From a virus: DNA of 24,418 nucleotides. Location: positions 1 to 24,418 of the IMG/VR virus record IMGVR_UViG_3300024348_000240; one strand, written 5' to 3'. A program made the translations under genes and the position numbers. Under the pieces are notes generated by a model that saw only the letters and a program-made list of their open reading frames with translations, ran no database searches and was not told the origin of the DNA. Shown here in pieces: positions 874-21,928 of this stretch; the first letter of the stretch is position 1, and every line of letters begins with the position of its first letter.

Positions 874-877
<4 letters not shown>
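572..877 (+). CDS. Small fibre-associated protein with WDGxxW-like module
   Basis: A 101-residue protein with start ATG 572 behind AAGGAG, seven bases upstream. Residues 20-47 contain [20 protein letters not shown] followed by TEWLAVG. This is the '[14 protein letters not shown]' module common in phage fibres, and it recurs here in the 894-residue protein and in the last gene. The C-terminal part has acidic and histidine-containing segments ([15 protein letters not shown]) and no clear domain. It overlaps the next gene by four bases (ATGA), which implies translational coupling with the collagen-like fibre. The likely role is a fibre subunit or connector; the specific function is not recognised. 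Confidence 0.75.
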
Positions 878-2288
<1,411 letters not shown>

Positions 2289-2289
<1 letters not shown>

Positions 2290-3461
2290 TGGCAATTAGA
2301 CTACAGCTTAGAAGAGACACATCTGCAAACTGGGCAGCAAATAATCCAATTTTACAAATGGGAGAATTTGGTTTTGACACTACTGTAAATAGATTTAAAA
2401 TTGGAATTGCCTCAAATGAAACATCTAGATGGTCAGCTCTTTCTTATTTAAATGTTATTCCAAGCGAACTGGCGGAGCTTGCACAGGATGCAGTAGAGCT
2501 AGCAATTACGGCGGGAACAGGAATTAGCAAAACTTATAACGACATAGCAAACACCATTACTCTTGGAGTAGATACTACAATTGCAAGTAAAGTTTACGTA
2601 GACAATGCCGTAGATGGATTAGGAAATACCTTACCAGAAACTTATATTCCACTGAGCCTACTTGGTAACGCAGACGGAGTTGCCGAACTTGACGCTACAG
2701 GATATGTTCCACAAACACAATTAACCAATACAATAACAGAGGTTAAAGGTTATACAGATACAGCAATTTCTGGATTGGTTAATTCCGCACCAGCTACGCT
2801 AAATACTTTAAAAGAATTATCAGATGCTTTAGGGGCAGATGCAAATTTTGCTACCACAACAGCTACAGCCCTGGGAACAAAAATTACTGCTTCAAGTACA
2901 GAGACGCTTACAAATAAATCAATTAGTTTGGGTTCAAATACATTTACTGGAACAAAAGCACAATTTAATACTGCAATGTCAGATGCTGACTTTGTTACCT
3001 TGGCGGGAACAGAAGAGCTAACAAACAAAACATTAAACTCACCAATTCTTAATTCTCCAACAGGTTTATTAAAAGCCGATGTAGGTTTAAGCCTTGTTGA
3101 CAATACATCAGATGCTAGCAAGCCAGTATCAACTGCAACGCAAACCGAGTTAGACACTAAATTAAACAAATTAGTTCAAACAAATGCACAGGCTGCAGCA
3201 TATCAACTTGCAGTAGGCGATGCTTTTAAATTAATTGAAATGAGTGGCGGCGGGGCCCTAACAATAGTAGATTCTGGGCTATTCCCAGTAGGGTATACTG
3301 TAGATGTTTTACAAACGGGATCTTCTCAAGTAACAATTCAAGGTAGCGGGTTTACTCCAAATGCTACGCCAGGATTAAAATTAAGAACACAGTGGAGTTC
3401 TGCAACTTTGATTAAAAGAGCATTAAATTCGTGGGTTGTTCTTGGCGATTTAACCGTTTAA
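2289..3461 (+). CDS. Mtd-type N-domain tail fibre
   Basis: A 390-residue fibre. Residues 1-52 (RLQLRRDTSANWAANNPIL, MGEFGFDTTVNRFKIGI) are a second copy of the Mtd-like N-terminal domain found in the upstream gene. Residues about 60-95 contain the 'AQDAVE...ISKTYNDIANTITL' module repeated in the 894-residue protein. Residues about 117-145 carry TYIPLSLLGNADGVAELDA, and about 164-192 carry a LNTLKELSDALGAD segment, both typical of phage fibre shafts. TLTNKSI and ELTNKTLNSPIL mark beta-helix-like shaft repeats at about 205-265. Residues about 300-390 are a beta domain ending in WVVLGDLTV that is widespread at fibre tips. The ATG overlaps the preceding stop by one base (TAATG), so re-initiation is likely. 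Confidence 0.88.
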
Positions 3462-3476
3462 AAGAAAGATACATAA

Positions 3477-4418
3477 ATGGCAATTAGAAACTCTGGAAAA
3501 CATGGCAGACGCAAAGTGTCTGTTCCAAATGTGACTGGATCAAGCAGATCTAATGCCCAAACATCAATTACTGCAGCTAGCTTAACATATTCAGAATCTT
3601 CAACAAATACATCCGACTCTGGTCTTTCACAAATAGTTCAAAGTCAAGGAATTTCTTCAGGATCTGTTGTTTTAATAGGAAGCGATGTTCCATTTACTTA
3701 TTATAACTACGTTGCACCTCCTCCGCCAATTATTGCAACTCCACCGCCTATCATTGCGGTAACACCGCCTATCATTGCGGTAACACCGCCTATCATTGCG
3801 GTAACACCGCCTATCATTGCGGTAACACCGCCTATCATTGCGGTTCCTTCTCCTGTAATCAACTCAATTACAGAAAATAGATCATGTACTACCATTACTA
3901 TTGACTTTACAACAAGTGATTCTGCTTCTTGGTACGTATTTACTTCAACTGGTTGGGCTGCCGCCTCGACTGGTAATGGCTCCAGCGGTTCATGGACAGG
4001 AAACGTAGGAACTTGCGGAACCACTAGGTCTGGAACTTTAAGAGCCTATCAAAGTGCAAATCAAGGAGGAACATTTGTTTCACAAGCCTTTAGCATTTCA
4101 ACTTTATCATGCTCCAGCTGTACTCCACCGCCTATCATTGCGGTAACACCGCCTATCATTGCGGTAACACCGCCTATCATTGCGGTAACACCGCCTATCA
4201 TTGCGGTAACACCGCCTATCATTGCGGTAACACCGCCTATCATTGCGGTAACACCGCCTATTATTGCGGTAACACCGCCTATCATTGCGGTAACACCGCC
4301 TATCATTGCGGTAACACCGCCTATCATTGCGGCAGTAGATTGTTCAACAGCATCTTGCGGTAATGACCCAGGTAGGGCCTGCTGCTTCTACTTAAGAGGA
4401 GTTTGCCGTGCTTGCTAA
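3477..4418 (+). CDS. Proline-rich PPIIAVT-repeat protein with beta domain and Cys-rich C-terminus
   Basis: A 313-residue protein with start ATG 3477 and only a weak purine-rich AAAGAAAGA upstream. The basic N-terminus (MAIRNSGKHGRRKVSVPN) is followed by a Ser/Thr-rich region. Six PPIIAVT-type heptads lie at about residues 83-124. A beta-sandwich-like domain (about 125-217) contains four cysteines and a WYVFTSTGW segment. Ten more heptads lie at about 218-287, and a 27-residue tail holds six cysteines. I do not recognise a family. The position among fibre genes and the stalk-domain-stalk layout suggest a virion surface fibre, with repeats forming an extended proline-rich stalk and cysteines forming disulfides or binding metal. 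It sits immediately upstream of the oxygenase block, so its prolines and threonines are candidate modification sites; that is inference. Confidence 0.75.
   Translation: MAIRNSGKHGRRKVSVPNVTGSSRSNAQTSITAASLTYSESSTNTSDSGLSQIVQSQGISSGSVVLIGSDVPFTYYNYVAPPPPIIATPPPIIAVTPPIIAVTPPIIAVTPPIIAVTPPIIAVPSPVINSITENRSCTTITIDFTTSDSASWYVFTSTGWAAASTGNGSSGSWTGNVGTCGTTRSGTLRAYQSANQGGTFVSQAFSISTLSCSSCTPPPIIAVTPPIIAVTPPIIAVTPPIIAVTPPIIAVTPPIIAVTPPIIAVTPPIIAVTPPIIAVTPPIIAAVDCSTASCGNDPGRACCFYLRGVCRAC
3723..3848 (+). repeat. 21-bp tandem repeat block 1 (six units, PPIIAVT)
   Basis: Six in-frame 21-base units begin at 3723, 3744, 3765, 3786, 3807 and 3828. The middle four (3744-3827) are identical; the first is diverged (PPIIATP) and the last ends PPIIAVP. 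Each unit encodes PPIIAVT, and 21 bases keep the frame whatever the copy number. Every perfect unit holds the inverted repeat ACCGC, eight bases, GCGGT. Confidence 0.97.
4128..4337 (+). repeat. 21-bp tandem repeat block 2 (ten units, PPIIAVT)
   Basis: Ten in-frame 21-base units start every 21 bases from 4128 to 4317. The only internal change is a silent T for C in the seventh unit (4254), and the last unit ends PPIIAA. The consensus is the same as in block 1 some 280 bases upstream, so the blocks probably arose by duplication and are prone to unequal exchange. Confidence 0.97.
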
Positions 4419-4488: not shown

Positions 4489-4704
4489 ATGCCTAATAGA
4501 AAAATTGCTATGATTAATAACAATAACGTTGTTAGCCAAATTATAGTTTTTGATGAAACAGATATTGCCGAGCAGGGAGTAATTGCTGGGATGCTTTCTG
4601 AGCCAAAATGTTTTGAAATAAATCCTAACTCAGAAGCAACAATGGGATGGACTTATATTAACGGAATAGCATATCCCCCAGAAGAAATAGTGGAGATTAT
4701 ATAA
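4489..4704 (+). CDS. Small GW-motif protein, fibre-chaperone-like
   Basis: A 71-residue protein with start ATG 4489 behind AAGGAGATATA. An N-terminal beta hairpin (KIAMINNNNVVSQIIVFDE) is followed by a C-terminal motif MGWTYINGIAYPPEE. The downstream 63-residue gene has the same plan, ending in KGWTWDGNNFYPP. Short proteins with a 'GW.y..g.f.pP' ending are common among phage tail genes, next to or fused with fibre-assembly chaperone domains. The role is therefore inferred as virion assembly or a small fibre accessory. No catalytic motif is seen. Confidence 0.7.
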   Translation: MPNRKIAMINNNNVVSQIIVFDETDIAEQGVIAGMLSEPKCFEINPNSEATMGWTYINGIAYPPEEIVEII

Positions 4705-4896
4705 ATGGTAAAAAAGTTTATTTTAGTTGTAGGGGAAGATGTTGTTACAGAAATGACTATGCCAGATGTAAATAAATTTAGTGGACTAATTGATACTTTA
4801 TCAAATAACCCCAGGTTTGTTGAAATACCAATAGATTCTGAGATAGATAAGGGCTGGACCTGGGATGGAAATAATTTTTATCCCCCACAAAATTAG
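4705..4896 (+). CDS. Small GW-motif protein, paralogue of the preceding gene
   Basis: A 63-residue protein with ATG 4705 directly after the preceding stop, behind GGAG nine bases upstream. It shares with its neighbour the FILVVGEDVV N-terminal strand-turn-strand, a middle segment with PRFVEIPIDSE (compare PKCFEINPNSE), and the C-terminal GWTWDGNNFYPP. The two look like a tandem duplication. The function is unknown; a chaperone or accessory role in fibre assembly is inferred from similar short proteins at 19543-20066. Confidence 0.7.
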   Translation: MVKKFILVVGEDVVTEMTMPDVNKFSGLIDTLSNNPRFVEIPIDSEIDKGWTWDGNNFYPPQN

Positions 4897-4907
4897 ATTG
4901 GAAATTG

Positions 4908-5150
4908 ATGTCAGACAGCAAAAAATCTTTATGGCAACAATATAAAGAAAATCTAGGTGACACCAGGCCTTGGGATTTGATTAATCCAAATTCTGAATGG
5001 GCATCTGAAGAAAAAGCAGACAACAGATTTTCTATTTGCAAAGCATGCCCAGAGCTTATTCAAGCAACAAAGCAATGCAAAAAATGTGGGTGCTTTATGG
5101 CAGCAAAAACTAAATTAGAGAAAGCCTTGTGCCCTCTTGGGAAATGGTAA
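4908..5150 (+). CDS. Small zinc-ribbon protein
   Basis: An 80-residue protein. I use ATG 4908; a TTG directly before it at 4905 is also possible. Six cysteines fit a zinc ribbon: C44-x2-C47, C57-x2-C60-x-C62 and C75, in the context FSICKACPEL, QCKKCGCFM and CPLGKW. This 'CxxCPEL...CKKCGCFM..K..L..A.CPLGKW' pattern belongs to an uncharacterised family I recall from aquatic phages, often near structural genes. The N-terminal 35 residues are hydrophilic with two tryptophans. The gene is the first of the tightly packed set leading into the oxygenases, and its stop lies one base before the next ATG. It could bind nucleic acid or act as a protein adaptor; neither can be decided here. Confidence 0.8.
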   Translation: MSDSKKSLWQQYKENLGDTRPWDLINPNSEWASEEKADNRFSICKACPELIQATKQCKKCGCFMAAKTKLEKALCPLGKW

Positions 5151-5151
5151 T

Positions 5152-5712
5152 ATGTTTAAAGCAAATATAATTCAAGATTTTATTTCAAAAGAAAATTGTG
5201 AATATTTAATTAATACTGCAATTGCTTCAGATTTATGGGAAAGCGGCGGTTCCACATTTTGGGATAACCGTGTTATTAATTATCATAAAATTGGCGAATA
5301 CGATAAAAAGTCTGCATCCATAATGTTAGACGCAAATGTTCGTTGCGGAGAAAGAATTAAAAACTTGTTTAGCGTAGAAGAAATATACTCTGACACATTA
5401 CAAATAATTAGATGGTTTCCAGGAATGGAACAGCCACCACATGCAGACGACATGAGCAACACCGATATGATAGGATTCGAGCACAGGTCCTTTGGGTCTA
5501 TTATTTATTTAAACGATAACTATACAGGCGGACACACTTATTATCCAAATTTTGATTTTGAAATTATTCCTAAGTCTGGCGCTTTAGCAATTCATCCAGG
5601 GGATCCAGAACACCTTCATGGAGTAACAAAAATTGAAAATGGAATGAGATATACAATTGCTTCGTTTTGGACACAAGAAAAAGAGAAAAGTCATGGCTGG
5701 CCAGTATATTAA
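5152..5712 (+). CDS. 2OG-Fe(II) oxygenase, prolyl 4-hydroxylase-like
   Basis: A 186-residue enzyme with start ATG 5152; an in-frame TTG at 5137 lies inside the previous gene and is less likely. The double-stranded beta-helix signature is complete: H97-x-D99 in EQPPHADD, the distal H156 in HLHGVTKI, and R166 in NGMRYTIASFW for the 2-oxoglutarate carboxylate. The GSIIYLNDNYTGGHTYYPN stretch between them is diagnostic of the P4Hc/PKHD superfamily. Such enzymes couple oxidation of 2-oxoglutarate to succinate and CO2 with hydroxylation of a substrate, often proline in a peptide. The length fits a single catalytic domain. The next gene overlaps by 20 bases. The substrate is unknown; fibre proteins nearby are the obvious candidates. 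Confidence 0.88.
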   Translation: MFKANIIQDFISKENCEYLINTAIASDLWESGGSTFWDNRVINYHKIGEYDKKSASIMLDANVRCGERIKNLFSVEEIYSDTLQIIRWFPGMEQPPHADDMSNTDMIGFEHRSFGSIIYLNDNYTGGHTYYPNFDFEIIPKSGALAIHPGDPEHLHGVTKIENGMRYTIASFWTQEKEKSHGWPVY

Positions 5713-6448
5713 TGATAAGGGTAACGAAGTCCCTGAAAATACAATTGTAGTAATTCCACACGCACTAGACTCGGATGGTTCATACAAAGAAGTTTTGCTT
5801 GACTTAAAGGGCAACCCTAAAAGAGAATGGTTTAATTCTCATTTTTACTATTGCTTGCCATTAACTATAGGAAATCAGTATGGCTATGTAATTAAATCTC
5901 TTAGAGACTTTACTGCTATTTGGGACGGAACTAATAACAATGCACAAATTAATTTTATTAATAATGACAACGAAGATTTGCAAGTAATTAAAGATGGATT
6001 TGGTCAAGGAATTATAACAATACAAAACAAATTTGGATTTAAAACTCCACCAGGAATAAATCTTATGACAATACAGCCACCAAATTGGTTTATACCAGGA
6101 ACCGCTGCGATGACGGGTGTTATTGAGACGGATCAGATTAGGCGTGATTTTACATTTAATTTAAAAATAACAGTTCCCAATATAGAAATATCTGTAAAAA
6201 AAGGTGACCCCCTGGGTGCATTTATTCCAATACCAAGATACTTTGTTGATAGGTTTAGCATAAAGCTTGTGTCAGATATTTTTGATAAAGACTCACACTC
6301 CTTAGAATTAAACGAGCTGATGTCTTTAGGCAAAGAAAGAACTACAATAGATTTGGCAAAACCTCACCAGTCTGGCCGCAGATATTTTAACGGTTTGCAT
6401 ACTAATGAAACTGAATACCCCGATCATCAGAAAAGAGTACCAAAATGA
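5693..6448 (+). CDS. DUF6065-like protein of unknown function
   Basis: A 251-residue protein. ATG 5693 (MAGQYIND) is preferred over an in-frame TTG at 5657, because it follows a purine-rich stretch and overlaps the previous gene by only 20 bases. The core has TPPGINLMTIQPPNWFIPG, then a GVIETD segment, FTFNLKITVPN and KKGDPLGAFIPIPRYF. This arrangement matches, from memory, the uncharacterised DUF6065 family, which occurs in bacteria and phages. No HxD metal motif is seen, so it is not another oxygenase by this criterion. It overlaps the next gene by four bases (ATGA), so it is part of the same translational unit. It may supply or present a substrate to the enzymes, which is inference only. 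Confidence 0.75.
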   Translation: MAGQYINDKGNEVPENTIVVIPHALDSDGSYKEVLLDLKGNPKREWFNSHFYYCLPLTIGNQYGYVIKSLRDFTAIWDGTNNNAQINFINNDNEDLQVIKDGFGQGIITIQNKFGFKTPPGINLMTIQPPNWFIPGTAAMTGVIETDQIRRDFTFNLKITVPNIEISVKKGDPLGAFIPIPRYFVDRFSIKLVSDIFDKDSHSLELNELMSLGKERTTIDLAKPHQSGRRYFNGLHTNETEYPDHQKRVPK

Positions 6449-6993
6449 AAAATCCAATAGTTATAAACAATTTGTTGTCACAAGAAGAGTTTAAAGAATT
6501 GCAAGATTATGTTAAAAATTTAGATAAATCAACATTAGGACATTCTGCTGAATTTAGTAGATACGAATTTGGGGGATCTGAAATATTAGATTCTTTACAC
6601 AAAAAGCTAATGCCCCTTGCTATGGATTTTTTTGAAAGCCAAACCCTAGTTCCATCATTTAATTTTGGCTCTTGGTACTATGGGCAAGCATCCCTAGAAA
6701 AGCATAGAGATGTTGCCCCATGTACTTACAGTATAGATTTATGCGTGTATCAAAATACGCCGTGGGATTTATATGTTGAAGGGGTTCCTTACACACTGCA
6801 AGAAAATGAAGCCCTTTTATATTATGGCGAGGGTCAGAAGCACTGGAGAGAAGAGTTTCCAGATTCAGGAAATAATGTTGTTTGTAATGTTTTTTTCTTT
6901 TATGTTGAGCCAGACCATTGGTCAATTATTGAGCCTGAAGAAAAACACGATATAATTAGAAGACAGAATGCTATTGAAAGGAATTTATCATGA
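6445..6993 (+). CDS. 2OG-Fe(II) oxygenase-like protein (divergent)
   Basis: A 182-residue protein with ATG 6445 coupled to the upstream stop. The N-terminal 'IVINNLLSQEEFKELQDYV' is the typical opening helix of prolyl-hydroxylase-like enzymes. Metal ligands are probably H87-x-D89 (LEKHRDVAPC) and H133 (EGQKHWREEF). The segment YSIDLCVYQNTPWDLYVEG provides the central strands, and VVCNVFFFYV the final strand. The arginine that usually binds 2-oxoglutarate is not at its standard place after H133, so co-substrate binding may differ or activity may be lost. The gene is flanked on both sides by four-base overlaps. It is probably a hydroxylase of the same superfamily, with less certainty than its two neighbours of P4H type. 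Confidence 0.75.
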   Translation: MKNPIVINNLLSQEEFKELQDYVKNLDKSTLGHSAEFSRYEFGGSEILDSLHKKLMPLAMDFFESQTLVPSFNFGSWYYGQASLEKHRDVAPCTYSIDLCVYQNTPWDLYVEGVPYTLQENEALLYYGEGQKHWREEFPDSGNNVVCNVFFFYVEPDHWSIIEPEEKHDIIRRQNAIERNLS

Positions 6994-7772
6994 AAATTGA
7001 AAAACACTGCGATGGAAATGTAATAATAGTTGAAGATTTTTTGAGTCAAGAAGAAATTACGCAGCTAGACTCTTTTATGAGAAATTTTGACTATAACAAT
7101 TTGCAAGAGCACGAATTTAAATATTGGGGAAAACGTTTAATTAATGATTATCAAATGAAATTAAACCCAGGGTATGAAAATGTTATGGATGGCGTTTTAC
7201 CTACTTTAAATTCTATAATACAAAGAACAACAAACTTTTTAAATGAGCAAGACTATCAAGCCGAGTGGATCCCTTCTCCACATAATTTAATTAAAATGTT
7301 TAATGGCTCAAGTAACATGGAGTTTGATGGAGACAAAGAATTAGAAATGTTTATCCACATAGACAATCAAGGACACATGGAAAGCCCAATTATGTGGGGT
7401 AGCGTACTTTATCTTAATGATGATTATGAGGGCGGAGAGATTTATTATCCAGATTATGATTACCTGTATAAGCCCAAGGCTGGCTCAATGGCATTGCATA
7501 GAGGCAACACCCGTCACGGAGTCAAAAAAGTAATTTCTGGTGAACGTTTTTGTGCAGCCTCTTTAGTTACAATAAAAGGAAATTGGAATAATAATCCTTT
7601 GCCAACTAGAACTGATAACGCAGACAACCCTTACCATTATCCAATAGGGTACTGGGGAAAAAGATACAGGCTTGATCCTATTCAAGGAGAAATTAAAAAC
7701 CTTAGAAGCGACGGATCTACAGCAGAATATAACCCAGATCCTGAATTAGGAAGGGCGGATGGAAATGGTTGA
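6990..7772 (+). CDS. 2OG-Fe(II) oxygenase, prolyl 4-hydroxylase/PKHD type
   Basis: A 260-residue protein with start ATG 6990 overlapping the previous stop (ATGA). Motifs in order are NVIIVEDFLSQEEITQLDSF (entry helix), H123-I-D125 in MFIHIDNQGH, GSVLYLNDDYEGGEIYYPD, GSMALHRG, then H176 in TRHGVKK and R186 in SGERFCAAS. All four active-site residues are present. The C-terminal 60 residues (GYWGKRYRLDPIQGEIKNLR and a polar tail) extend beyond the usual domain and may bind the substrate or another virion protein. It resembles the 186-residue enzyme at 5152 in the central motif, so the two are likely diverged paralogues. Substrate unknown. Confidence 0.88.
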   Translation: MKIEKHCDGNVIIVEDFLSQEEITQLDSFMRNFDYNNLQEHEFKYWGKRLINDYQMKLNPGYENVMDGVLPTLNSIIQRTTNFLNEQDYQAEWIPSPHNLIKMFNGSSNMEFDGDKELEMFIHIDNQGHMESPIMWGSVLYLNDDYEGGEIYYPDYDYLYKPKAGSMALHRGNTRHGVKKVISGERFCAASLVTIKGNWNNNPLPTRTDNADNPYHYPIGYWGKRYRLDPIQGEIKNLRSDGSTAEYNPDPELGRADGNG

Positions 7773-8334
7773 TCAATTACTTATAGAAGAAGCAATAAGA
7801 GATAGAAAGATACATGTATTTAGAAATGCGTTTCCAGATACCCCTAAATGGGAAACCATGTTAGCAATTATTGCAAAGTATGTATCTAGAGATCTAGAAG
7901 AGTTTCCAGACAAGAGTCATTTAAGCACTTCAAATCTAGGAGAAGCGTATCTTAGCTTTCAATTACGATGCAGATTTTGGTCTAGACTCACTTATCAATT
8001 ATTTGATCCAAAAGATCCACTTGAGTCGGATGTAAAAGAGCTAATCCCCATACTAGACTGGGCTAATGATACTTACGGTAGCCGCCTTGCAAATACATTT
8101 TCTCTTGTAAGTTTAATGGCTAATAGAGGACAAGTGGGATTAAAACACAGCGATGATGTTGATCAATTTCAATGGAATTGTAGAGGCACTTCACTGTGGA
8201 GGACTGGAGAAGATCTAGAGGTTGAAACTCACATCGAACCTGGAGATTTTATTTTTATTCCAAAGGGCATAAACCATGAAATTGAAACATTGACCCCTAG
8301 GTTTGTAATAAATTTGGTATTGAATAATGAATAA
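7759..8334 (+). CDS. Cupin/JmjC-like 2OG-Fe(II) oxygenase
   Basis: A 191-residue protein. ATG 7759 overlaps the previous gene by 14 bases; a second ATG at 7765 is better spaced from AGGAAGGG and could be the true start. Residues 128-183 hold the cupin core: H130-x-D132 in LKHSDDVDQF, WNCRGTSLWRTG, then IEPGDFIFIPKGINHEIETL with distal H173, and R181 in PRFVINLVL. This 'PGD.ifiPkG..H' arrangement is the Cupin_4/JmjC-like branch, whose known members hydroxylate ribosomal proteins (ROXA type) or histones. The family is thus distinct from the P4H-type genes upstream. It is a putative protein hydroxylase with unknown substrate. Confidence 0.8.
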   Translation: MEMVDQLLIEEAIRDRKIHVFRNAFPDTPKWETMLAIIAKYVSRDLEEFPDKSHLSTSNLGEAYLSFQLRCRFWSRLTYQLFDPKDPLESDVKELIPILDWANDTYGSRLANTFSLVSLMANRGQVGLKHSDDVDQFQWNCRGTSLWRTGEDLEVETHIEPGDFIFIPKGINHEIETLTPRFVINLVLNNE

Positions 8335-8905
8335 TATTATATATATAGATAAAAATCATGTCAGCCAACAGGACATTTTAAATGCTAAGCAAAATGTTGA
8401 CTTGCTTTACATTGCAAATTTAATTCCCTCAACCACGGGTTGGTCAGAATTTATTGATCATTGTGATTACACCGTTAAGCATCCAGAAGTTACTTTACCA
8501 AGCCCAGTAAAAGTTATAGGCGCATTACAAATATGGGATGATCTTTTTATGGCAGGATACAATGTTAGCAGTGGCAATTGCTTTAGCCAACTTGAAGAGG
8601 TCTTTGCAAAAACAACAGAGCTTTTTGGCAGAAGACCAAACAACGGCTGTACCCTGATAAACTTTGTTGGGCAGCAAAAAACAATACCAGTTCATACAGA
8701 CATAAGAGATTCATTTTTGTGGCAAGCAATAGGATCGGTTGAATGGAGAATTTGTGAAACACAAAGCGAAGACTCTGTGTATCAAATTTTAACGGTAAAT
8801 CCAGGAGATGTTTTGTTTGTCCCCTCTGGACTTATTCACACAGTCTTTTGCAAAGACCCTAGAGCTGGAATATCTATATTCTATGACAAAGAGACCCACC
8901 AGTAA
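8327..8905 (+). CDS. Cupin/JmjC-like 2OG-Fe(II) oxygenase, second copy
   Basis: A 192-residue protein whose ATG 8327 overlaps the preceding gene by eight bases. The active-site set is H123-x-D125 in TIPVHTDIRDSF, WQAIGSVEWRICE, VNPGDVLFVPSGLIHTVF with H171, and R179 in DPRAGISIFYD. The layout (HTD, tryptophan-rich middle strand, PGD...PxGxxH, then R) is the same as in the 7759 protein, while overall identity is low, which points to an old tandem duplication. It is the last gene of the oxygenase block; a 77-base gap with promoter-like boxes follows. The substrate is unknown. Confidence 0.8.
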   Translation: MNNIIYIDKNHVSQQDILNAKQNVDLLYIANLIPSTTGWSEFIDHCDYTVKHPEVTLPSPVKVIGALQIWDDLFMAGYNVSSGNCFSQLEEVFAKTTELFGRRPNNGCTLINFVGQQKTIPVHTDIRDSFLWQAIGSVEWRICETQSEDSVYQILTVNPGDVLFVPSGLIHTVFCKDPRAGISIFYDKETHQ

Positions 8906-8982: not shown

Positions 8983-11667
8983 ATGGCAACAGCATTCCCT
9001 ACCTCCAAAGATGACTTTGTAAATCCTCAATCGACGGATTCTGTACAAACGGTATCTCATGCTGCCCAACACGCAGACGCAAATGATGCTATTGAGGCTC
9101 TTGAAACAAAGGTTGGTGTTAATAATTCTACCGACCCAGCCTCTATTGATTATAAAGTAAAACAACTTGAGCTTAACTTCCTAGACACTGAAGAAGTTCA
9201 AGATATTGCCGCAGCTCTTTTAGACCATGCTGATCATTCTAACGTAAGCGTTACCTTCAATGATATTTCTAACAAATTAATTTTATCTGTTTCAAATGCC
9301 CCGTCAGCCAACTATACTTCTGTTGTTAAGCATGAGGTAAGAGCAGGAGAAGGCCTAGTAGCTGGAATACCCGTCTACGTAAGTTCCTCTAATGGAACAA
9401 ACATGATTGTTTCAAAGGCTAGCAATGCTGGAGATGCAACTTCTAAAACTCTAGGGCTGCTTGCTCAAAATTTAAACGTAAATACAAACGGATTTGTTAT
9501 TACGGAAGGTCTACTTGCTGGTTTAAATACTGGCACTGCGGTGGCGGGAGATCCAGTATGGCTAGGGCCTACAGGAACATTAATATATGGATTAGCAAAT
9601 AAACCAAAGGCGCCAGCTCAATTAGTATTTATTGGTATAGTAACAAAAGCAAATGCAAGCAGCGGTGAAATTTTTGTTAGAATTCAAAATGGCTTTGAAC
9701 TTGAAGAACTTCATAATGTTAACATAACCGCACCAGTAACAGGCGAAGTATTAATATATAACGCAACTACAGGCCTATGGACTAACACAAATACAATGGC
9801 TTCAAAGTCATATGTAGATACAGCAGTATCAGGTCTTTCAAATACAGTTGGAACAACATATATTCCCCTCGCTTTACTTGGAAACGCAGACGGTGTTGCA
9901 GAACTTGACGAAGCTGGATTTGTACCCGCATCTCAATTAAACATCGATGAAAAGATTCAAGACGTAGCAGCAAAGCTAATTACAGACGGAACCCACTATA
10001 ACATTACCGTCTCATATAATGATACTAATGCAACATTAAGCTTAAGCGCAAACTATGACGACGAAGAAGTAATGGACGCAATTGCCACATCTTTAACGGC
10101 GGGCAATGGAATAACAAAGACTTATGACGATGTTGCTAATACAATAACCCTAGCGGTAAACACATCTGTAATTGCTGATCAGGCATATGTAAATCAAAAG
10201 ATTGCCGACTTAGTTGCTTCCGCTCCTGCTGTACTAGATACATTAAAAGAGATTGCAGACGCTTTAGGAAATGATGCTAGTTTTGCAACAACAATAACTA
10301 CCGCCCTATCTTCCAAACTAAATATAACTACTGCCGCAAGCACCTATCTAGCACTTGCCGACACAGATGAAAGAGTTCAAGATGTTGTTGGCGGTATGGT
10401 TTCTGGAAATACAGAATCAACAGGAGTTGCCGTAACATACGATGACCCAACAGGCAAACTAAATTTTGAAATAACAACAGCAAACCTTCCAGGATTTACT
10501 GAGGCAGCACAGGATTCCGTAGCAGGCCTATTTACACACGCTGGCCATACAAATGTAACAGCTACATATGATGACGTAGAAAATAAAATTAATTTATCTG
10601 TAATAGCCCAGCTAACACAAGAGCAAGCTCAAGATTATATTGCTCCATTATTTACACACGGTCTAAACCCTAATATAACAGCAACTTATGATGACACCGC
10701 TAATAAGCTTATTCTTGAAACAATTATTCCTCCGTCAAAAGCTATTATGTCTGCTTTTGCTCCAACGTCACCAGCAGATGGAACATTCTGGTTTGATACA
10801 GATGAATATAGAAGCGGTAACACATGGGCACTAAAAGTTTGGCAAGCATCAACATCATCCTGGCAGTACGTATCTTCAGATCTTTCATTATCAACAACAA
10901 ACACATGGACATCTAAAAACACATACACTAATGGTGTAATTATTGGATTAGATGCAGCACCAGCATCTCCAGTTCACGGACAAATTTATTACAACAAGCC
11001 ATTAAATAAGTTAAAGGTTTGGGACGGCCTACTGTGGCAAGATATTCAAGGAGCAGGAGGCGGTGGAGGATTAACATTAATTCCAACAGATGCATCTGCC
11101 CCACCAAGTACATTTTTTGTAGGTTTAATTTCACCCCCATCAGGAGCAACAGCAGAAGGAGATCTATGGATTGATGTTGATGACATTGATACTCCATTTA
11201 ATCAATTCTATACAGGTGGAGTCTCACCAGATCCCGCACAATATGAATTTTGGGTTGACAATGTTGAGCCAATTCAAGAATTAATTTACAGCGCAAATGA
11301 ACCAGCTACGCCATCATACCCAGGAGAACTTTGGATTGATACAGATGAGTATGATGGAGCAATTGTAGAATTTGGAGCAACCGCCCCAAATCCAGATAAT
11401 GTTCAGCTATGGGTAGACATAAATGAAAATGAATCTCCAAGTTATTATAAAGATTTAACATTTACCAACTATGCAACCGTTGCAGATTTTCCAGTCTCTG
11501 CTCCAAATGGCTATGTTGCTTCAGATGCATCAAGCGGAATGGCTTATGTAAGAAGCCAAGGACAGTGGTTGGCAATAGTAACTTCGTCAAATATAAATAC
11601 TATTATTTCTTCAAACTCAACAGTATTTGAAGATTTAAAAGCTTTAGCCTGGATGGGATTTGAATAA
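8983..11667 (+). CDS. Large modular tail fibre protein (894 aa)
   Basis: ATG 8983 follows the tandem TATAAT boxes with no well-placed Shine-Dalgarno. At least six copies of a module opening 'E(E/K/R)xQD' and closing 'YDD..nkl.L' begin near residues 70, 322, 360, 462, 506 and 546 (for example EEVQDIAAALL, ERVQDVVGGMV, EQAQDYIAPLF). Residues about 110-245 form a beta domain (VRAGEGLVAGIPVYVSS, VRIQNGFELEELH). About 288-315 repeat the TYIPLALLGNADGVAELDE element of the 2289 gene. The C-terminal third has repeated GDLWIDVDD/GELWIDTDEY and KVWDGLLWQD modules, then YATVADFPVSAPNGYVAS and a final tip. This is a long, probably trimeric, virion fibre. Repeats alternate with unique domains, which suggests growth by module duplication. 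Confidence 0.88.
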   Translation: MATAFPTSKDDFVNPQSTDSVQTVSHAAQHADANDAIEALETKVGVNNSTDPASIDYKVKQLELNFLDTEEVQDIAAALLDHADHSNVSVTFNDISNKLILSVSNAPSANYTSVVKHEVRAGEGLVAGIPVYVSSSNGTNMIVSKASNAGDATSKTLGLLAQNLNVNTNGFVITEGLLAGLNTGTAVAGDPVWLGPTGTLIYGLANKPKAPAQLVFIGIVTKANASSGEIFVRIQNGFELEELHNVNITAPVTGEVLIYNATTGLWTNTNTMASKSYVDTAVSGLSNTVGTTYIPLALLGNADGVAELDEAGFVPASQLNIDEKIQDVAAKLITDGTHYNITVSYNDTNATLSLSANYDDEEVMDAIATSLTAGNGITKTYDDVANTITLAVNTSVIADQAYVNQKIADLVASAPAVLDTLKEIADALGNDASFATTITTALSSKLNITTAASTYLALADTDERVQDVVGGMVSGNTESTGVAVTYDDPTGKLNFEITTANLPGFTEAAQDSVAGLFTHAGHTNVTATYDDVENKINLSVIAQLTQEQAQDYIAPLFTHGLNPNITATYDDTANKLILETIIPPSKAIMSAFAPTSPADGTFWFDTDEYRSGNTWALKVWQASTSSWQYVSSDLSLSTTNTWTSKNTYTNGVIIGLDAAPASPVHGQIYYNKPLNKLKVWDGLLWQDIQGAGGGGGLTLIPTDASAPPSTFFVGLISPPSGATAEGDLWIDVDDIDTPFNQFYTGGVSPDPAQYEFWVDNVEPIQELIYSANEPATPSYPGELWIDTDEYDGAIVEFGATAPNPDNVQLWVDINENESPSYYKDLTFTNYATVADFPVSAPNGYVASDASSGMAYVRSQGQWLAIVTSSNINTIISSNSTVFEDLKALAWMGFE

Positions 11668-18547: not shown

Positions 18548-19540
18548 ATGCCACAATCCAACACCACGTCGTCTATATATTTACCAGGACTTACAACAAC
18601 AATTAACACCGCTATCACTAATGGCTTGAATGCTGGCATTACAGCACAAGCAATTGCAGCAGGTGGAGTTAGCTCTATGTACTTGCCATTAGAGTCAAGA
18701 CTATACAGCTCTGGTTCTTGGACACGTCCAGCAAACTCAGGACCAGTAATTAAACTTGTTCTTGTTGGAGGAGGCGGTTCAGGTGGGTGCGGTGTTTCAT
18801 GGAGCCATAATGGCGCAGGTGGCGGAGGAGCAGGACAGCTTGTTGAGAGATGGCTAGATATTTCATCAGTTGCAATTGGTGGAACAATTCCAGTTACAAT
18901 TGGAAATTTTGGTGCTGCTGTAGGTGGAAACTCAAACGGTAATAATGGAGGAAACTCTTCATTTGGTTCTAACGGAAACGCTTACTATGTAATTGCATAC
19001 GGTGGTGGCGGAGGAGGATACCCATACGGCACAGGAAATAACGGTAACTCAGGTTCAATGGGTCAGGGAGCAGGAAATATTAACGGTGGAGGCTCAGGCG
19101 GAGGCGGAGGAGCAGGCGGAGATTGGCAGTACGGAGCAGCAGGCGGCGGCGGCGGAGCAGGCGGTGCTGGACAAAACGGAATGAATACAACAGTTCAGAA
19201 TGGAACTGGAAGCCCAGGATATCCTGGAGGAATAGGTTTTGGTCACGGATCTTCAGGCGGAGGAACAGGATCTAACCACAGCTGGACTTCATGGATTGGT
19301 ACTGGAGGAGCAGGCGGAAATGGTCTTTATGGAATTGCAGGCGGAGGCGGTGGCGGAGGCGGAGCAGGCGGAGGAGGATCATGTGGCGGTGGCGCAGGAG
19401 GTTCTCAAACAATAGATAACACAGGTGGAACAGGCATGGACGGAACTGGTTCAGGCGGCGGAGGAAATAATCATTCAGGTGGAAATGGTCAAAGAGGAGG
19501 TACTGGCGTAGCTATTATTACATACTACGTTAAGGCATAA
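18548..19540 (+). CDS. Glycine-rich tail fibre/adhesin
   Basis: A 330-residue protein with ATG 18548 after AAAGGAG. The N-terminus is SSIYLPGLTTTINTAITNGL. A strand-forming segment SWTRPANSGPVIKLVLVGGG leads into about 245 residues dominated by glycine (runs of up to nine), broken by islands such as GAGQLVERWLDISSVAIGG, YYVIAYGGG and GLYGIAGGG. The final strand is VAIITYYVKA. Glycine-rich phage adhesins such as S16 gp38 form polyglycine II bundles whose exposed loops bind the receptor. A similar fold is plausible here, with variable loops NHSWTSWI and SCGGGAGGSQTIDN. It is paralogous to the 311-residue protein at 20066. Two chaperone-like genes lie between them. Confidence 0.85.
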   Translation: MPQSNTTSSIYLPGLTTTINTAITNGLNAGITAQAIAAGGVSSMYLPLESRLYSSGSWTRPANSGPVIKLVLVGGGGSGGCGVSWSHNGAGGGGAGQLVERWLDISSVAIGGTIPVTIGNFGAAVGGNSNGNNGGNSSFGSNGNAYYVIAYGGGGGGYPYGTGNNGNSGSMGQGAGNINGGGSGGGGGAGGDWQYGAAGGGGGAGGAGQNGMNTTVQNGTGSPGYPGGIGFGHGSSGGGTGSNHSWTSWIGTGGAGGNGLYGIAGGGGGGGGAGGGGSCGGGAGGSQTIDNTGGTGMDGTGSGGGGNNHSGGNGQRGGTGVAIITYYVKA

Positions 19541-19542
19541 CT

Positions 19543-19821
19543 ATGAGAGATTACGTATTTATTAATGAAGATGGTACAGTACACAACATACTAAACCTAG
19601 TTGGACCAGAAGCAATCGAAGCAAACGATGATCTTAAAGATCTTTTGCACTTTGACTACACAGACTGGGCAATAGAAGATAAACCAGCACCAAGCTGGAC
19701 ATACAATAAGGAAACAGAAGTCTGGACAAAAATTCTTCCGTTTATTTCACCAGTTGTTGTAACAAACCTTGTACCACTTGAGGAACCAGCAGTAGATGAA
19801 CTTACAGGGGGTAACAACTAA
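19543..19821 (+). CDS. Small fibre-accessory protein (chaperone-like)
   Basis: A 92-residue protein with ATG 19543 two bases after the adhesin stop, behind AAGG. The N-terminal strand turn YVFINEDGTVHNILNLVG and the PAPSWTYNKETEVWTKI motif resemble the small GW-type proteins at 4489 and 4705. The C-terminus is acidic (EEPAVDELTGG). It lacks the YRQALRD chaperone helix. It is inferred to be an accessory or chaperone for the glycine-rich adhesin just upstream. TAATG coupling to the next gene. Confidence 0.7.
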   Translation: MRDYVFINEDGTVHNILNLVGPEAIEANDDLKDLLHFDYTDWAIEDKPAPSWTYNKETEVWTKILPFISPVVVTNLVPLEEPAVDELTGGNN

Positions 19822-20066
19822 TGTCAAGAACATGGGCACTCTTAGTAGATAATATTATTGGTAATGTTATTGTTGCAGATCAAGAATTTATTGAATCTCA
19901 TCCAGATTTTTCTCAATTAGAAAAAATTGATATAACAGATTATAATCCACAACCAGGAGTTATGTGGAAAATAGAAGATAATAAGTTTATAGCACCAGAT
20001 CATGTTAAGCCAAAAGCAGAACATGTTTTGGATGACGGACTTCTTGAAATCGAGGTAAAAGCATAA
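19821..20066 (+). CDS. Small fibre-accessory protein (chaperone-like)
   Basis: An 81-residue protein, ATG 19821 overlapping the previous stop and preceded by GGGGGT. The layout is similar to its upstream neighbour: a strand turn (ALLVDNIIGNVIVADQ), DFSQLEKIDITDYNPQ, then the motif PGVMWKIEDNKFIAPD, corresponding to the GWTWDGNNFYPP ending of the 4705 gene. The C-terminal tail is lysine/glutamate-rich. The role is inferred as for its neighbour. Its stop overlaps the ATG of the second glycine-rich adhesin, so it may serve that protein. Confidence 0.7.
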   Translation: MSRTWALLVDNIIGNVIVADQEFIESHPDFSQLEKIDITDYNPQPGVMWKIEDNKFIAPDHVKPKAEHVLDDGLLEIEVKA

Positions 20067-21001
20067 TGGCAACATACGGAACGATTAATCAAATTTATGT
20101 ACCAGGATTAGATACTGCAATTCAATCAGCAACAACAACACTTTCAACATCTGTTGCTGTTCCTCTTATTGCTGCTAACCTTGCAGGATTTTATAATGCA
20201 TATGAAGTTTCAATTTTAAGCGGTGGAACTTGGGTAAGACCAACTAACAGCGCAGGTATAGCAGAAGTAACCCTTGTCGGCGGAGGCGGAGGCGGAGGTT
20301 GCTCTAACGGCTCAACTAACCACGGCGGAGGCGGAGCAGGCCAATTACTAAAAAGACTTCTTGATATATCATCAGTAGCAGTAGGTCAAGGAATTTCAAT
20401 TGGTATTGCATCAGGTGGAACATGTAACGCACAAGGTGGAAACTCAACATTTGGAACTTCAGGACAGCCATTCTACATGGTTGCATACGGCGGAGGATCA
20501 ACACAAGGTAACGGACAATCTGGTTCAAATGGAGCGGGAGCTCAAAATAGAACAGGAATTGGCTCAGGAGGAGGCGGCCAAGGTAACTGGCAGAACTCAT
20601 GGGGCGGCGGAGGCGGCGGAGGCGGAGCTGGAGGCGCTGGAGAGTACCCTAATATATTCTTCTATAACTCTGGAGGATACTCTGGATACTATGGAGGATC
20701 AAGAAGCTCATCAGAAGGTTCATCAGGTGGTGGACCAGGTGCAGCTAACTCAAATGACTCTGGAAGAAGATCTGCTGGAGGACGTGGAGGTCCAGGCCTT
20801 TATGGAATTGCAGGCGGCGGAGGCGGATCTGCTAGAGGTGTTGGCGGACCAGGAGCAAACGGTGGAGGACAAGGCTTCGGAGATTATATCGGAACCCCTG
20901 GTGCAGATGGAAGAGCAAATACTGGTTCAGGCGGTGGTGGCGGCGGAGGAAACACTGCTGGCTCAGGAATCTGCAAAATTACCTATTGGGTAAAAGCTTA
21001 A
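20066..21001 (+). CDS. Glycine-rich tail fibre/adhesin, second paralogue
   Basis: A 311-residue protein, TAATG-coupled to the preceding small gene. Its plan is that of the 18548 protein: INQIYVPGLDTAIQSATTTL, then TWVRPTNSAGIAEVTLVGGG, GAGQLLKRLLDISSVAVGQG, FYMVAYGGG, GLYGIAGGGGGSA and a final ITYWVKA. The loops differ clearly (FFYNSGGYSGYYGGSRSSSE, GQGFGDYIGTPGADGRA), while the frame elements are shared, as expected for adhesins diverging in receptor choice. A polyglycine II fold is plausible. The overlapping plus-strand open frame at 20400-20993 is a shadow produced by GGA/GCA-rich codons. Confidence 0.85.
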   Translation: MATYGTINQIYVPGLDTAIQSATTTLSTSVAVPLIAANLAGFYNAYEVSILSGGTWVRPTNSAGIAEVTLVGGGGGGGCSNGSTNHGGGGAGQLLKRLLDISSVAVGQGISIGIASGGTCNAQGGNSTFGTSGQPFYMVAYGGGSTQGNGQSGSNGAGAQNRTGIGSGGGGQGNWQNSWGGGGGGGGAGGAGEYPNIFFYNSGGYSGYYGGSRSSSEGSSGGGPGAANSNDSGRRSAGGRGGPGLYGIAGGGGGSARGVGGPGANGGGQGFGDYIGTPGADGRANTGSGGGGGGGNTAGSGICKITYWVKA

Positions 21002-21484: not shown

Positions 21485-21928
21485 ATGTACGCAATAGTTA
21501 AGAATAATGAAGTTACAAATATTGGTGAAATAACAGTATTGTTTCCTAATACTTCATTCCCTTCTAACGGAGAATATGGAGACTTTATAAAAGAAAATGA
21601 TTTACATCCAGTTATTACTGATTTAGAGTATGATTCAAATACTGAAAGATTAGTTCCATGTGCACCATACATTAAAAGCAAAAAAGTTTATAATGTTGAA
21701 GTACAACCAATTTCTGCCGATGATCAAAAAGATATCTTGCTGGCGCATATCGATTTTGAATTAATATCTACAGAGGGACTTGAGACTAAATCAGATTTAG
21801 CTGCAAAAGATAAGCAGGCTTGGGTAAAGTATAGAGAAAAGCTTGTATTGCTAAAAGAATATTCAAATGTATCAGAGATTACATGGCCAGAAAAGCCTGT
21901 AGTCTATGGTGGAACAGAGGAAAACTAA
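21485..21928 (+). CDS. Tail fibre chaperone-like protein
   Basis: A 147-residue protein, ATG 21485 behind AAAGGAG. It opens MYAIVKNNEVTNIGEI then VLFPNTSFPSNG, the usual start of phage proteins that carry a fibre-chaperone C-terminus. That terminus is present as DDQKDILLAHIDFELISTEG, DKQAWVKYREKLVLLKEYS and ITWPEKPVV (compare YRQALRDLP and YPTEP in the 17431 protein). The middle 40 residues (VPCAPYIKSKKVYNVEVQPI) form a linker. It probably assists folding of the tip protein upstream or the lectin-like protein downstream. The stop is directly followed by the next TTG start. Confidence 0.85.
   Translation: MYAIVKNNEVTNIGEITVLFPNTSFPSNGEYGDFIKENDLHPVITDLEYDSNTERLVPCAPYIKSKKVYNVEVQPISADDQKDILLAHIDFELISTEGLETKSDLAAKDKQAWVKYREKLVLLKEYSNVSEITWPEKPVVYGGTEEN

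Follow-up and report, generated by a model that had tools for sequence, protein, structure and literature searches.

Oxygenase gene blocks linked to proline-repeat proteins in the tail-fibre operons of aquatic phages

The record IMGVR_UViG_3300024348_000240 (24.4 kb; positions 1 to 24,418, hereafter the window) derives from a freshwater phage in which five genes for iron-dependent hydroxylases of the 2-oxoglutarate (2OG)-Fe(II) oxygenase superfamily lie closely clustered. In related phages, this block and genes for proline-rich tandem-repeat proteins accompany one another in both directions of search, and we consider it probable that the block serves fibre maturation: its enzymes would hydroxylate the Pro-repeat protein encoded beside it and, in many phages, thereby supply a handle for glycosylation. 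An earlier reading made from the letters alone (the sequence-only reading) had described five of six adjacent, overlapping genes with HxD...H metal sites, belonging to two structural branches and lying inside a tail-fibre operon. Each of these points was upheld: the six open reading frames (ORFs), A to F, start at ATG codons (Table 1) and overlap by 20, 4, 4, 14 and 8 nt in gene order, the metal residues are invariant across relatives, Pfam, PHROGs and a model of C place A, C and D with the prolyl 4-hydroxylase (P4H)-like branch and E and F with the JmjC/cupin branch, and PHROGs tail matches lie on both sides of the block. The block's membership of five oxygenases stood, and its extent was amended, in that a Cys-rich DUF6171 gene preceding A by one base was added and the non-oxygenase gene starting at 5693 (B) was found to encode DUF6065.

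The forward linkage, from oxygenase to repeat gene, was assessed by scanning IMG/VR with the F and C sequences and later with a C profile, which returned relatives from 100% to about 40% identity, and 80 of 393 C relatives were examined. Loci with at least 2.5 kb upstream were counted, and a Pro-rich tandem-repeat ORF was sought within 4 kb upstream. Such an ORF was present upstream of C in 73 of 75 loci, and in 41 of 43 after dereplication at 95% C identity; as background, 1.0% of the remaining ORFs of these loci (17 of 1710) qualify as Pro-rich tandem-repeat. Both misses can be explained: the PVIIATP repeats of L205 fall below the threshold, and L192 and L193 represent one phage, the repeat gene of L193 lying further upstream. 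The repeats read PPIIAVT, PPPIIAT, PVIIATP, PPVIIIAEP, APTPVAP or PTPTP according to lineage, and C is 39-100% identical among most rows of the family alignment. Since the repeats differ between clades and the enzymes stay, the partnership outlasts the repeat sequence. In distant relatives the APTPVAP repeats are fused to a domain of tail/virion type.

The reverse scan used repeat DNA alone, and loci with at least 2.5 kb downstream were counted. Block enzymes were found downstream of PPIIA-type tandem repeats in 34 of 34 loci, a count to which the forward and the reverse scans both contributed loci, and downstream of APTPVAP-type repeats in 68 of 73, a count restricted to loci labelled by the repeat scan. 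Four APTPVAP exceptions (L090, L140, L162 and L163) were rejected as antisense readings of collagen-like GATG genes, not true repeats, a call based on detailed examination for L090 and L163 and on like composition for L140 and L162. The sole unexplained exception, L103, has an 87-residue APTPVAP fragment and 6.9 kb downstream without block enzymes. No block was seen beside the 1959-residue APAPIAP protein of L131/L177, for which less than 2.5 kb is available downstream. Thus, the co-occurrence of the block with PPIIAVT-type fibres in viral metagenomes, proposed earlier as a check, proved strongly positive in both directions, and modification of a virion fibre is the likely role of the block.

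Two further features were observed around the repeat genes. Distant P4H-like phage genes that lack DUF6171 and C have Pro repeats upstream in 29 of 67 loci, with other sequences (PFFPP, LPTVLP); within L258-L331 (e.g. L269, L279, L295) they follow genes for PFFPP and LPTVLP repeat proteins, which may possibly represent a second kind of hydroxylated repeat fibre. In L028 (4459-4935) and L205 (7316-7792), the repeat gene is separated from the block by an ORF resembling polymerase-beta-type nucleotidyltransferases.

The set of enzymes varies with the repeat unit. Phages with the PPIIAVT unit have the order DUF6171-A-B-C-D-E-F, those with the PPPIIAT unit are without E and some of them also without B, and those with PVIIATP or PPVIIIAEP units have DUF6171-C-D only. 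A wider scan for E did not extend this pattern to further lineages whose repeat gene could be read. The target of E may be some element of the AVT segment.

The identity of the enzymes was examined by family profiles, structure comparison and selection analysis. The metal triad is invariant in 34 representatives of the A family, in 27 sequences of the C family down to 21% identity, in 11 sequences of the D family and in 13 E/F paralogues. A exceeds the Pfam cut-offs for 2OG-FeII_Oxy_3 and 2OG-FeII_Oxy, and its nearest relatives by sequence in the Protein Data Bank (PDB) are prolyl hydroxylases, including prolyl 4-hydroxylases, from bacteria and eukaryotes. F scores 34.4 bits against the JmjC_2 cut-off of 22 and E, at 20.8, falls just under it; both have weak PDB matches to the L16 arginine hydroxylase and NO66. 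C and D are not recognized by Pfam; A, C and D were matched to phage 2OG families in PHROGs, and D weakly resembles A-type families and PKHD/P4H chains by sequence. The double-stranded beta-helix was predicted as a model for C alone, the fold of A being assigned by Pfam cut-off and that of D by sequence. The AlphaFold2 model of C (pLDDT 94.9) has this 2OG fold and aligns to PHD2, Trichoplax PHD and the Pseudomonas putida P4H at VIA Z 14.5-15.4 over about 155-165 residues; a C profile search of PDB sequences gave chance-level matches only. At the position of the distal Arg/Lys that binds 2OG in this superfamily, R186 of D lies at H+10 and is invariant, A has an Arg at H+10 in the window that is outside the near-invariant columns of its family, and C has the invariant R135 at H+2. 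The model of B has a pLDDT of 60 and matches dUTPases at Z 10-11, so that its fold assignment is tentative. Nearly all pairwise comparisons of A to F give dN/dS values of about 0.02-0.17, so these genes are maintained under purifying selection rather than by chance; the Cys-rich gene gave higher values. In L030 a C-like oxygenase domain and the Cys-rich domain of DUF6171 are joined in a single ORF (2340-3164), which suggests that the small Cys-rich protein works together with the oxygenase. DUF6171 is not specific to the module, since DUF6171-like ORFs of Stenotrophomonas and Rhizobium phages sit among non-tail genes. In PHROGs and RefSeq, families that match the oxygenases of window positions 5152-7772 (phrog_2954, phrog_3531, phrog_2297 and phrog_274) bear the names 'ferrochelatase' and 'DNA endonuclease (V)', which are likely misannotations of 2OG oxygenase families.

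In many relatives, glycosyltransferase genes follow or interrupt the block. PF11397 was found in 14 of 39 records with the module, compared with 2 of 35 other P4H-bearing phage records and 0 of 14 control genomes, and 13 of the 14 genes were placed by their coordinates directly downstream of C or inside the block, including those of the PPIIA-repeat phages L012, L023 and L199. We take PF11397 to be the family of the Dictyostelium Skp1 hydroxyproline N-acetylglucosamine (GlcNAc) transferase, CAZy family GT60. The Skp1 pathway includes GlcNAc transfer to hydroxyproline, and related enzymes of GT60 initiate mucin-type glycosylation at Ser/Thr (PMC8724618). GDP-mannose dehydratase-like epimerases accompany the block in other relatives. 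In the lineage of L192 (133-5148) and L193, a sulfotransferase, an AspH-type hydroxylase and an adenylylsulphate (APS) kinase surround the block, as if the fibre were sulfated. For the window phage itself, a family 2 glycosyltransferase (GT2) gene (L247:8831-9889) is present in the tail region, just past the right end of the window.

Taken with the linkage, these observations point to the following scheme. During infection A, C and D, and here also E and F, would hydroxylate the Pro-repeat protein encoded at 3477-4418, the Cys-rich DUF6171 protein acting as an accessory factor. Prolyl hydroxylation is proposed as the first step because P4H-fold enzymes adjoin Pro-repeat proteins and because the transferase family is of hydroxyproline type; the likeliest targets would be the prolines of each PPIIAVT unit, acted on by the P4H-type enzymes, and the product would be a tail stalk or tip rich in hydroxyproline. 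Enzymes encoded nearby in many relatives, namely GlcNAc transferases of GT60 type, further glycosyltransferases and sugar epimerases, would then use the hydroxyl as a handle for O-glycosylation; for the window phage, a glycan would likewise be putative. The suggestion that the enzymes act directly on glycans found no support; glycosylation may instead follow hydroxylation. More tentatively, and with rather less confidence than we place in the module itself, many aquatic phages could carry a hydroxyproline-rich tail O-glycoprotein in which prolyl hydroxylases convert each repeat and GT60-type or other transferases (in one lineage an apparent sulfotransferase with APS kinase) decorate it; such a protein would parallel, in bacterial viruses, the hydroxyproline-rich glycoproteins of plants and the Skp1 pathway.

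Several observations weigh against this scheme. Members of the 2OG superfamily have many different substrates, and the C model matches small-molecule oxygenases with scores equal to those for PHD2 and P4H. Among the few examples examined, marine cyanophage oxygenase blocks and relatives of DUF6171 do not stand beside Pro-repeat proteins. A tree of C and D contains two changes in E, both accompanied by a change of unit, which is not significant; with too few events and phylogenetic non-independence, the covariation of E with the unit is suggestive only. The 54.9-kb sister contig of the window phage (G006), itself a fragment, has no PF11397 gene. In PBCV-1, an algal virus with a P4H of its own, virion hydroxyproline was sought and not detected (PMC7019647). 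Lastly, collagen-like stretches lie within 6.5 kb upstream in 54 of 76 C loci.

This last count, together with the resemblance of A to collagen-type P4Hs, would suit oxygenases that hydroxylate the collagen-like GATG/GPTG fibre (874-2289) and so stabilise its triple helix, a guess also made for such genes by a survey of auxiliary metabolic genes (PMC9301287). We regard this as unlikely. The Pro-repeat protein is nearer and more strictly linked than the collagen-like genes (73/75 against 54/76 loci), and the repeat unit and enzyme set covary. Collagen P4H acts on the Y position, and the collagen repeats of the window are mainly GAT/GPT, with Thr and not Pro in that position; no Gly-X-Pro substrate with Pro in Y was found strictly linked to the enzymes. 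Because collagen-like stretches that are short occur in 54 of the 76 loci, collagen is better seen as a possible extra substrate than as the discriminating partner, and the collagen-like gene gave way to the Pro-repeat gene as the linked neighbour.

It is a little less likely again that the enzymes act on host proteins, in the manner of ribosomal oxygenases or the EF-Tu prolyl hydroxylase, or that host metabolism is their target, for instance through consumption of 2-oxoglutarate. E and F are near JmjC_2, the ROXA group, with the weak matches given above, P. putida P4H modifies EF-Tu (PMC7864055), and cyanophage papers have proposed nitrogen/2OG roles, host nitrogen metabolism being one guess (PMC3037559). 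Such targets leave the two-way adjacency to Pro repeats, the position in the tail operon and the tracking of the unit by E unexplained, and host substrates of ROXA type, once offered as an alternative, are not needed to explain the linkage. Least likely of all is an unrelated cargo island that travels with the tail region, its linkage reflecting the shared ancestry of a single phage group: every locus belongs to a related aquatic phage, and changes in E and unit are few, yet C spans a wide range of identity, repeats as different as PPIIAVT, APTPVAP and PTPTP keep the partnership, and the distant P4H-like genes without DUF6171 or C are also linked to Pro repeats.

The repeat protein of the window contains its PPIIAVT arrays as a 21-nt unit in about 5 and 10 copies, and the genes around it are listed in Table 1. 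Further along the window, glycine-rich tail proteins (18548-19540 and 20066-21001) each lie near small assembly-like ORFs (19543-20066 and 21485-21928), which suggests several exchangeable fibre-tip units.

Table 1. Genes of the oxygenase block and its surroundings in the window
Feature	Coordinates	Strand	Description	Evidence
Collagen-like gene	874..2289	+	collagen-like (GATG/GPTG) tail-fibre gene; context, possible extra substrate	
Tail-fibre gene	2289..3461	+	C-terminal domain resembles domain fused to APTPVAP repeats in L053	
Pro-repeat gene	3477..4418	+	Pro-rich tandem-repeat protein, proposed substrate; two PPIIAVT arrays, Cys-rich C-terminus	
Small ORF	4489..4704	+	resembles tail-fibre assembly/chaperone-like ORFs, inferred from GWTYINGIAYPPE	phrog_14370 (function unknown)
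Second small ORF	4705..4896	+	like 4489-4704	homologues upstream of block in L006, L010, L012, L018 and others
DUF6171	4908..5150	+	Cys-rich protein (C..C...C..C.C...CP..KW), module member	Pfam, PHROGs, relatives
A	5152..5712	+	P4H-type 2OG-Fe(II) oxygenase; H97, D99, H156	Pfam, PDB sequence matches, metal site
B	5693..6448	+	DUF6065; non-oxygenase; low-confidence model, dUTPase-like beta fold	Pfam, model
C	6445..6993	+	divergent 2OG-Fe(II) oxygenase, most conserved enzyme of the module; invariant H87, D89, H133, R135	alignment, model
D	6990..7772	+	P4H/PKHD-type 2OG-Fe(II) oxygenase; H123, D125, H176, R186	PHROGs, alignment
E	7759..8334	+	JmjC/cupin-type oxygenase; H130, D132, H173; accompanies PPIIAVT-unit repeat proteins only	
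F	8327..8905	+	JmjC_2/cupin-type oxygenase, paralogue of E; H123, D125, H171	
Tail-fibre gene	8983..11667	+	next tail-fibre gene downstream, module flank	

The window is 99.98% identical, over the overlap, to the 54.9-kb contig of the same phage. An actinobacterial host (Actinomycetota) is probable, since the portal protein of this contig and its counterpart in Streptomyces phage BillNye share 57% identity. Among cultured phages, neither a nucleotide search with the whole block nor a search for B (DUF6065) gave a match. In 84,980 bacterial and archaeal genomes, 31 pattern matches to C contained no relative; therefore, no prophage or host copy was found there.

Multi-gene oxygenase blocks as such have a precedent, contrary to what the sequence-only reading had implied, because the cyanophage S-CREM1 has nine 2OG/JmjC genes in tandem (PMC9964418), and the genome of S-SCSM1 has 24 2OG/JmjC oxygenase genes (PMC9602691). 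The clusters of S-CREM1, S-SM1 and S-SCSM1 resemble the present block in their tandem 2OG/JmjC genes, which include distant relatives of A and C, and differ in enzyme set and order, in neighbouring proteins that, where examined, are not Pro-repeat fibres, and in having no assigned function (PMC9964418, PMC9602691). 2OG-Fe(II) oxygenases with structural likeness to human EGLN3 occur widely among aquatic phages (PMC12774648), and one survey called the viral use of prolyl 4-hydroxylase cryptic (PMC9301287). In the open-access literature that was searched we found no report tying phage oxygenases to Pro-repeat tail proteins, which is not proof of novelty. The conserved Pro-repeat partnership offers a concrete, testable candidate substrate for these long-puzzling enzymes.

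The P4H of PBCV-1, cited in PMC7019647 as hydroxylating Pro-containing peptides (Eriksson et al. 1999), is likewise a virus-encoded P4H fold, and its structure 5c5t matches C in fold and A weakly in sequence; it is, however, a single enzyme of an algal giant virus, and an operon with a repeat-protein substrate is not described in PMC7019647. The protist Skp1 pathway, in which PhyA acts before the GT60 enzyme Gnt1 (PMC7864055, PMC8724618), pairs a PHD-type hydroxylase with a PF11397 transferase, as found beside the module in relatives, whereas it modifies one proline of a ubiquitin-ligase subunit rather than a tandem-repeat fibre-like protein, and the contigs of the window phage are without a PF11397 gene. 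Plant and algal hydroxyproline-rich glycoproteins (extensins and arabinogalactan proteins; PMC8724618) have Pro-rich repeats that are hydroxylated by P4H and then O-glycosylated, as we propose on the phage side; those are eukaryotic cell-wall proteins and transferases, and a glycan on the phage protein is putative. If the proposal is correct, phage tails would be assembled with the help of protein hydroxylation and probably of hydroxyproline-linked glycosylation, which would affect receptor binding, the diversity of tails and the degree to which infection depends on O2.

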